The notes under the pieces: model-generated
Told to the model about the DNA's origin: nothing
Databases searched by the model: none
What the model saw: only the letters and a program-made list of their open reading frames with translations
In this document: in pieces, positions 8,325 to 8,383 of the stretch
Numbering within the stretch: the first letter of the stretch is position 1
Layout of the letters: each line of letters begins with the position of its first letter
Program-made: the position numbers and the translations under genes
DNA from: Chrysogorgia sp. JL179-B06
Taxonomy: Eukaryota > Cnidaria > Anthozoa > Scleralcyonacea > Chrysogorgiidae
Assembly (NCBI GenBank): GCA_035772405.1
Contig: JAYKKM010000416.1
Span: 877,001-941,000 of the forward strand
DNA length: 64,000 nucleotides
Direction of reading: 5' to 3'

Positions 8325-8383
8325 GTACCAAGCTACACTGATGAGCTGTGGAACAGCGAAACACGTGTCTGTAGATATTGTAC
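8325..8383 (+). ncRNA. Minimal type I hammerhead ribozyme
   Basis: All conserved hammerhead parts are present in order. Stem I 5' strand: GTAC (8325-8328), loop CAAG, CTACA (8333-8337). Core CTGATGA (8338-8344). Stem II GCTGT/ACAGC with loop GGA (8345-8357). Core GAAA (8358-8361). A 3-bp stem III CAC/GTG with no loop, then TC with predicted cleavage after C8369. Stem I 3' strand: TGTAG (8370-8374), loop ATATT, GTAC (8380-8383). Every stem pair is Watson-Crick. A tiny self-complementary stem III is typical of hammerheads in Penelope-like elements and retrozymes, which are thought to act as dimers. An AT microsatellite starts immediately after stem I. The host element (about 8177-8383) is not identified. 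Confidence 0.88.

Follow-up and report, generated by a model that had tools for sequence, protein, structure and literature searches.

A hammerhead ribozyme in a Chrysogorgia genome belongs to a non-LTR retrozyme that sits in (TA)n tracts and ends like Penelope-like elements

Our analyses of a 64,000-nt stretch of DNA from Chrysogorgia sp. JL179-B06 (contig JAYKKM010000416.1, positions 877,001 to 941,000; hereafter, the window) revealed that the hammerhead ribozyme at 8325 to 8383 forms the 3′ part of a retrozyme copy at 8176 to 8386, which is itself embedded in a (TA)n tract. We interpret it, with a probability of roughly 65%, as the ribozyme of a family A non-LTR retrozyme whose RNA circles are copied by a Penelope-like protein into (TA)n microsatellites. 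The kind of element is already known; what is new, being absent from the literature searched, is the rule that its junctions follow and a stem-loop that it shares with Penelope-like elements (PLEs).

The type I hammerhead, on the plus strand, is identified by its core pattern, a structural descriptor, relaxed Rfam searching, and its genome-wide copies. Reading of the sequence places stem Ib (GTAC) at 8325 to 8328 and 8380 to 8383, stem Ia at 8333 to 8337 (CTACA) and 8370 to 8374 (TGTAG), the two cores at 8338 to 8344 (CTGATGA) and 8358 to 8360 (GAA), and stem II at 8345 to 8349 (GCTGT) and 8353 to 8357 (ACAGC), with a GGA loop. The original prediction of both cores, a perfect 5-bp stem II, and a two-part stem I therefore holds at these positions. 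Stem III had been described as loopless, self-complementary, and 3 bp long; the stretch ACACGTGT at 8361 to 8368 is indeed short and self-complementary, but its arms are 4 nt (ACAC/GUGU) once the A15.1–U16.1 pair is counted. Self-cleavage is predicted between 8369 and 8370, that is, after C8369, where we take the hammerhead rules to place it. We rejected the further reading of the site as a minimal, PLE-type ribozyme, which is contradicted by the internal loop in stem I and by the stem III arms: in the PLE-type minimal hammerhead (GAAACGTC), which the PLEs of the same loci have, stem III is nearly absent.

Several lines of sequence evidence indicate that this hammerhead is real. A loose hammerhead descriptor, which the site exceeds in strictness, found it as the sole match on either strand of the window, against a chance expectation of 0.005 per window (the same descriptor gave nine matches in 226 Mb of first-order Markov sequence). 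In the genome searched (781 Mb, 522 contigs), the core pattern CTGATGAGN{6,24}CGAAACN{2,12}GTCTGTAG had 2,976 matches, of which a few overlap, and the reversed pattern had none; the stems are thus kept in many genomic copies, as a genuine ribozyme had been expected to show. Hammerhead patterns gave no match in viral contigs and a single match, in a bacterial record, in a collection of genome contigs. The proposed Rfam search yielded only tRNA and no hammerhead in the window at gathering thresholds. At a relaxed threshold, Hammerhead_HH9 scored 19.8 bits (E = 0.015; 281 bases), far below its gathering score of 52, and Hammerhead_1 gave 21.8 bits (E = 0.28) for each of six family A ribozyme copies from other loci. 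While the subthreshold Rfam score would favor a chance hammerhead-like sequence, the simulated expectation and the copy number against the reversed control contradict that explanation, the probability of which we consider negligible.

The carrier is small and non-autonomous, as had been proposed. It is not undescribed, however: animal non-LTR retrozymes, including those of corals, are reported in PMC7229834. The family A reference unit, a single genomic copy of 280 nt, was taken from locus L008. By BLAST to that unit, the window copy is a 5′-truncated monomer on the plus strand covering unit positions 70 to 280 of 280. It ends in TAT (8384 to 8386) at the fixed 3′ junction of the family, which is the unit end. 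The first of two stem-loop modules (SL1) is missing from this copy; the second (SL2), CGCCC followed by the hairpin ACTACC/GGTAGT, TT, and GAGCACTCT, occupies 8178 to 8210. On its 5′ side lies a (TA)n tract at 8123 to 8176, on its 3′ side another at 8384 to 8416 that begins within the terminal TAT, and a further tract follows at 8423 to 8517. The flanking DNA had been called unique within the window; nothing else of note matches it there, but the genome contains many matching places, 8176 to 8400 giving at least 86 scored matches when 40 of 1,513 candidate places were scored. The window also contains a 6.5-kb tandem array at 32389 to 38931 (27-, 54-, and 81-bp purine-rich units; GC skew up to 0.97), in which several frames are open on both strands, and two adjacent direct copies of about 3.3 kb at 17468 to 20726 and 20751 to 24108, which are 94 to 97% identical in pieces. 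For an ORF at 4247 to 5320 (minus strand), which has 366 database relatives, those with an organism name among the 120 listed (a minority) come from stony corals (Montipora, Stylophora, Acropora, and Porites); taken by themselves, these matches would make a stony coral the likely host.

Two main types, A and B, emerged among the core-pattern places listed. Family B has a unit of 231 nt, a GGCC/GGCC stem II, and a self-complementary stem III, ACGGUACCGU; by reading, several pairs of stems II and III are changed on both sides between A and B with pairing preserved. The cut is predicted after unit position 263 in A and 223 in B. The search for tandem copies suggested by the original prediction was borne out, as both families occur as monomers and as head-to-tail arrays. 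The longest ATG frame in a trimer encodes 43 (A) or 36 (B) aa, leaving no ORF of note, GC contents are 0.468 and 0.485, respectively, and no LTRs were seen in the retrozyme arrays. Both families therefore combine the properties of animal retrozymes, namely, type I cores, repeats of 150 to 450 bp that are partly tandem, a GC content under 50%, and no coding capacity, and the window element is a member of this known kind. The part of PMC7229834 used here reports such elements from Acropora millepora, mussels, and axolotl, describes coral repeats of 220 to 245 bp with type I hammerheads, and matches our families in its account of short tandem repeats, many copies, low GC, and lack of coding. Neither a fixed junction with (TA)n nor a stem-loop in common with PLEs, as seen here in families A and B, appears in the portions of that study considered, and the word microsatellite is absent from its main text. 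Plant LTR retrozymes likewise have a hammerhead, proposed RNA circles, and a non-autonomous lifestyle but differ, in the parts of PMC7229834 and PMC7761336 considered, by a type III hammerhead, LTRs, a primer-binding site, a length of about 700 bp, and 4-bp target-site duplications.

RNA folding was consistent with the original suggestion that dimers cleave. In the family A monomer, for which stem III was entered with two pairs, the model's maximum, the hammerhead fold was predicted to lie 2.8 kcal/mol above the best fold; in the dimer, this difference was 0.5 kcal/mol. By these fold energies, the palindromic stem III would favor the dimer. Circles of A and B gave predicted folds of −89.4 and −84.8 kcal/mol, with z scores of −4.6 and −5.7 (60 mononucleotide shuffles each). 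In family B, an upstream segment, CTCATCAG, is complementary to the core segment CTGATGAG and is predicted to pair with it (L058, minus strand, 1311 to 1542), which could mask the hammerhead core in the circle. In contrast, most animal retrozyme circles leave the ribozyme free, according to the part of PMC7229834 considered.

The junctions between retrozyme and flanking DNA were analyzed in loci L030 to L079, taken in the order listed by the core-pattern search, and in the window. To define arrays, we required a BLAST identity of ≥85% to a single reference unit for each family, a cut-off that leaves older copies out of the sample. Removal of 10 of 49 rows (shorter than 60 nt or cut at a locus end) left 39 arrays, 19 of A and 20 of B, with the near-duplicate pairs L034/L035 and L051/L052 retained; 14 of the 39 are multi-unit. 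In 36 of 39 arrays, the 3′ end falls no more than 6 nt from a single fixed point immediately after the ribozyme, preceded by GTACTAT in A and TGTAGTTA in B. The 5′ ends of first units, on the other hand, are at scattered positions, with no pile-up at the predicted ribozyme cut in the sampled arrays. (TA)4 occurs within the next 20 bp 3′ of the array in 34 of 39 cases, within 20 bp before the 5′ end in 25, and on both sides in 23, compared to 223 of 8,240 random 20-mers (2.7%) drawn from these loci at distances above 900 bp from the center; in the window outside 8 to 9.2 kb, 44 of 8,968 20-mers contain it. Thus, the AT microsatellite that had been noted beside the hammerhead does adjoin it but is more than a neighbor: (TA)n is the seat of retrozyme copies. 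Our searches of the literature, mostly of papers accessible without subscription, found no placement of retrozymes in TA microsatellites. Target-site duplications are not discernible within (TA)n, and part of the 3′ tract could stem from slippage during insertion.

Inside arrays, the next unit follows directly after the same point, as TACTAT joined to TACGCTCC. From the predicted cut, the fixed junction is 17 nt downstream in A and 8 nt downstream in B. Reverse transcription starting at this point could traverse a whole unit only on a template that is continuous across the cut, which argues that the inserts derive from circles or from multimers left uncut.

Units of one array are on average closer to each other than to units elsewhere. 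For family A (86 units from 45 arrays, with the best-match loci L002 to L029 included), the mean distance was 0.0036 within arrays (112 pairs) vs. 0.0201 between arrays (3,526 pairs); for family B, the values were 0.0141 (9 pairs) and 0.0337 (378 pairs), respectively. The seven units of L012 show zero differences. Individual arrays vary, as no excess closeness over the surroundings is seen in L005 and L070 and only a slight one in L021, L022, and L038, and for 16 of 17 multi-unit A arrays an identical unit exists elsewhere over the stretch compared. A single circle copied repeatedly is a simple account of the average closeness; local amplification would likewise yield uniform arrays. Taken with the fixed 3′ end, the (TA)n flanks, and the scattered 5′ ends, the closeness within arrays agrees with target-primed copying in which circles or multimers are the template.

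PLEs of the same loci end like the retrozymes, with a hammerhead or hammerhead-like motif, a tail, and (TA)n, as judged from their sequences. On the plus strand of the window, reading points to a PLE-5-like 3′ end at 7952 to 8049 (a degraded hammerhead-like motif, CCGAGGAG...ATACGAAAC, and a tail) that abuts (TA)n at 8050 to 8100, and to a PLE-6-like 3′ end at 9007 to 9071 (CTGAAGATTC...GATGAAACAAGTT, with a tail ending in GGTAAGCGAAA) followed by (TA)n at 9072 to 9159. Between 7952 and 9159, three element ends, the retrozyme's included, therefore abut TA tracts within 1.2 kb, and such tracts look like shared insertion sites. Inverted (fold-back) repeats lie beside TA tracts at 8793 to 8898 and 9223 to 9323. 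A tblastn search with the GIY-YIG peptide of the window matched 9 of the loci fetched for retrozymes. In L011, L051, L052, and L060, a PLE ORF is followed by a minimal hammerhead (CTGATGAAGGGCTCCGCTCGAAACGTC), a 48-nt tail, and (TA)n, and in L006 and L054, other PLE-like ORFs are followed by hammerhead-like motifs, tails, and (TA)n. No hammerhead was found within 900 nt after the PLE-like ORF of L064, and the sequences of L057 and L075 stop too early to show one 3′ of the ORF. Pfam GIY-YIG matched L006 (E = 2.1e-6), L057 (E = 0.003), and L075 (E = 0.0044), the latter two below the curated cut-off; among 120 relatives listed for L057, some combine RVT_1, PF26215, and GIY-YIG. The GIY-YIG peptide of the window is itself a fragment of a PLE-like protein (58797 to 59198, minus strand, within 58284 to 59198) with at least 151 scored relatives in the genome and (TA)n downstream at 58284 to 58355. 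As reading revealed no hammerhead between the fragment and the (TA)n, we did not count it as evidence for a partner.

Beyond their tails, the individual PLE groups continue as follows. Nine of 14 PLE-6 tails enter TA and three the stem-loop; of the others, that of L019 enters a TA-rich stretch unscored by our rule and that of L072 a stem-loop with one base changed. Five of nine PLE-1 tails enter TA, three a AGCACTCTA stretch, and one neither, the last belonging to a PLE-1-like minimal hammerhead at 31661 to 31740 of the window (tail match at 31708). Six strings matching the PLE-5 probe comprised one scored as TA, two as stem-loop, two (in L069 and in L002, the window's own region) that reach TA further on, and an unrelated one at 60214 of the window. 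The PLE-5 hammerhead of L029 scored 32.5 bits with Rfam Hammerhead_1 (E = 7.7e-5), slightly below the gathering score of 34. BLASTP of a PLE-5 piece against one PLE-1 relative gave no meaningful match (E = 0.085), so that kinship of PLE-5 and PLE-1 rests on the domain labels of their relatives (PF26215, PF28514, RVT_1). Pfam found no domain in two PLE-5 pieces of L080 or in the 73-aa start of PLE-5. In L065, the PLE-5 copy carries two stem-loops on the minus strand (1057 to 1032 and about 962 to 940), the second ending 10 nt before the ATG of a frame that stops after 73 aa; an open stretch of 256 aa follows (minus strand, 768 to 1) with 1,459 database relatives, and some of the 120 listed are labeled PF28514, PF26215, or RVT_1.

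The stem-loop consists of GCYC, a hairpin of variable sequence, 2 to 3 nt, and GAGC[AG]CTCT (in RNA, GCYC-hairpin-GAGCRCUCU). Families A and B and a tandem family, D, carry it immediately after the junction, as do PLE-5 and PLE-6 copies that read through; in A and B, a second module follows about 65 to 70 nt further on. The string TATTACGCTC is identical letter for letter in A, D, and a second PLE-5 site; PLE-1 lacks the GCYC arm and retains AGCACTCTA alone. A descriptor of the stem-loop matched 243 times across 328,688 bases, with 43 distinct strings, and had no match in the reversed sequence, a count that is not a genome-wide rate, as the loci partly overlap and were gathered around retrozymes. 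Outside the called A and B arrays, 81 matches in 34 loci remained, diverged A and B copies still among them. From 51 distinct strings, 14 variants were selected by eye, and their longest inner stems add up to 59, compared to 45.9 ± 2.75 in shuffles, none of 5,000 reaching this sum; most variants were not significant singly, and two (L029, plus strand, and the second PLE-5 module) have virtually no inner stem. The literature searched, mostly papers accessible without subscription, yielded no stem-loop common to retrozymes and PLEs. With PLE-like ends and this common stem-loop, the retrozymes appear to carry PLE start signals. Family D (unit of 232 to 238 nt; L013, minus strand, 3672 to 4400; L039, minus strand, 1731 to 2906; L079, plus strand, 1996 to 2704) shares both stem-loops and the type of end, CTTTCATG(TA)n. 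Rfam reported no hammerhead at E ≤ 1 in L013 and L079, and D may be a retrozyme-like element using another ribozyme or none.

We propose the following route. Genomic retrozyme copies would be transcribed, and the hammerhead would cut the multimers to 280-nt units, mainly as a dimer sharing the 8-bp palindromic stem III, after which the units would be ligated into circles. A Penelope-like protein, with reverse transcriptase and GIY-YIG endonuclease, would recognize the stem-loop modules in the RNA, nick a (TA)n microsatellite, and initiate copying at UAU immediately upstream of the first module (TAT at 8384 to 8386 being the proposed start in the window). Depending on whether the enzyme stopped after one round of the circle or after several, a monomer or a tandem array would result, its 3′ end fixed in (TA)n and its 5′ end variable in position. 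The AT-rich ends agree with what is known of PLEs, since the Anolis PLE cuts AT-rich DNA and starts internally at two sites bounding a tail (PMC11167929), and the Adineta Penelope, which has a 31-bp tail, is reported to prefer simple AT-rich targets (PMC3846280, in the part considered). PLEs and retrozymes also share tandem copies, a hammerhead followed by a short tail, and a 3′ end set at an internal site (PMC11167929). PLEs, however, encode reverse transcriptase and GIY-YIG endonuclease and lack most of stem III, whereas retrozyme units have no protein of note and keep 4-nt stem III arms. We suggest that the retrozyme 3′ end works like a PLE end, without claiming membership. Against the proposal count the Rfam score, the PLE-1 copies without the GCYC arm, and the 14 of 39 5′ flanks that lack (TA)4.

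The same retrozyme could be target-primed by a PLE-type protein from an uncut or partly cut linear multimer transcribed from an existing array, with no circles. In the Anolis PLE, hammerhead mutants keep inserting and insertion proceeds mainly from uncut RNA (PMC11167929), an argument against circles being required, and the lack of a 5′-end pile-up at the predicted cut is as expected if cutting were unneeded. The closeness of units within arrays is explained more simply by a single circle, and circles of animal retrozymes are reported to be abundant (PMC7229834, in the part considered); we regard linear templates as rather unlikely.

The other two alternatives dispense with a PLE altogether. 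Simple repeats are known from the 3′ ends of LINEs and SINEs, and LINE-type reverse transcriptases are present in the window, so that a LINE-type element might move the retrozyme and the 3′ (TA)n be a tail made by slippage rather than the target, a view to which the 5′ flanks without (TA)4 would conform. It is improbable given (TA)4 at 25 of 39 5′ flanks and on both sides of 23, against 2.7% expected, and given that GIY-YIG PLEs of the same loci end likewise and have the stem-loop (the comparison covers PLE ends). Still less credible is the view that the repeat is a simple satellite dispersed through recombination between TA tracts and that its ribozyme is an inert relic. TA tracts are indeed common around the loci and several repeats are nested in them, but the combination of a fixed 3′ junction and scattered 5′ truncation is characteristic of reverse transcription, not of unequal exchange, and 2,976 matches retain an intact ribozyme core.

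Copying of circles by a Penelope-like protein would bear on the identity of the autonomous mover of animal retrozymes. PLEs have been named a strong candidate because both have type I hammerheads and tandem copies and co-occur (PMC7229834, in the part considered). The common junction and the stem-loop behind it would make this link testable with one purified PLE protein and short RNAs. A broader proposal, for and against which we find the balance even, is that animal retrozymes are stripped-down versions of Penelope leaders. The hammerhead, the start site, and the stem-loops would form one portable cassette, in which the PLE reverse transcriptase would read GCYC-hairpin-GAGCRCUCU as its start signal, prime at UAU on nicked (TA)n, and run round ribozyme-made circles to lay down tandem arrays in one pass. 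If true, the PLE hammerhead, the role of which is called unknown in the part of PMC7761336 considered, would gain a place in a common copying cassette, and the tandem arrays would be explained by reverse transcription round a circle.
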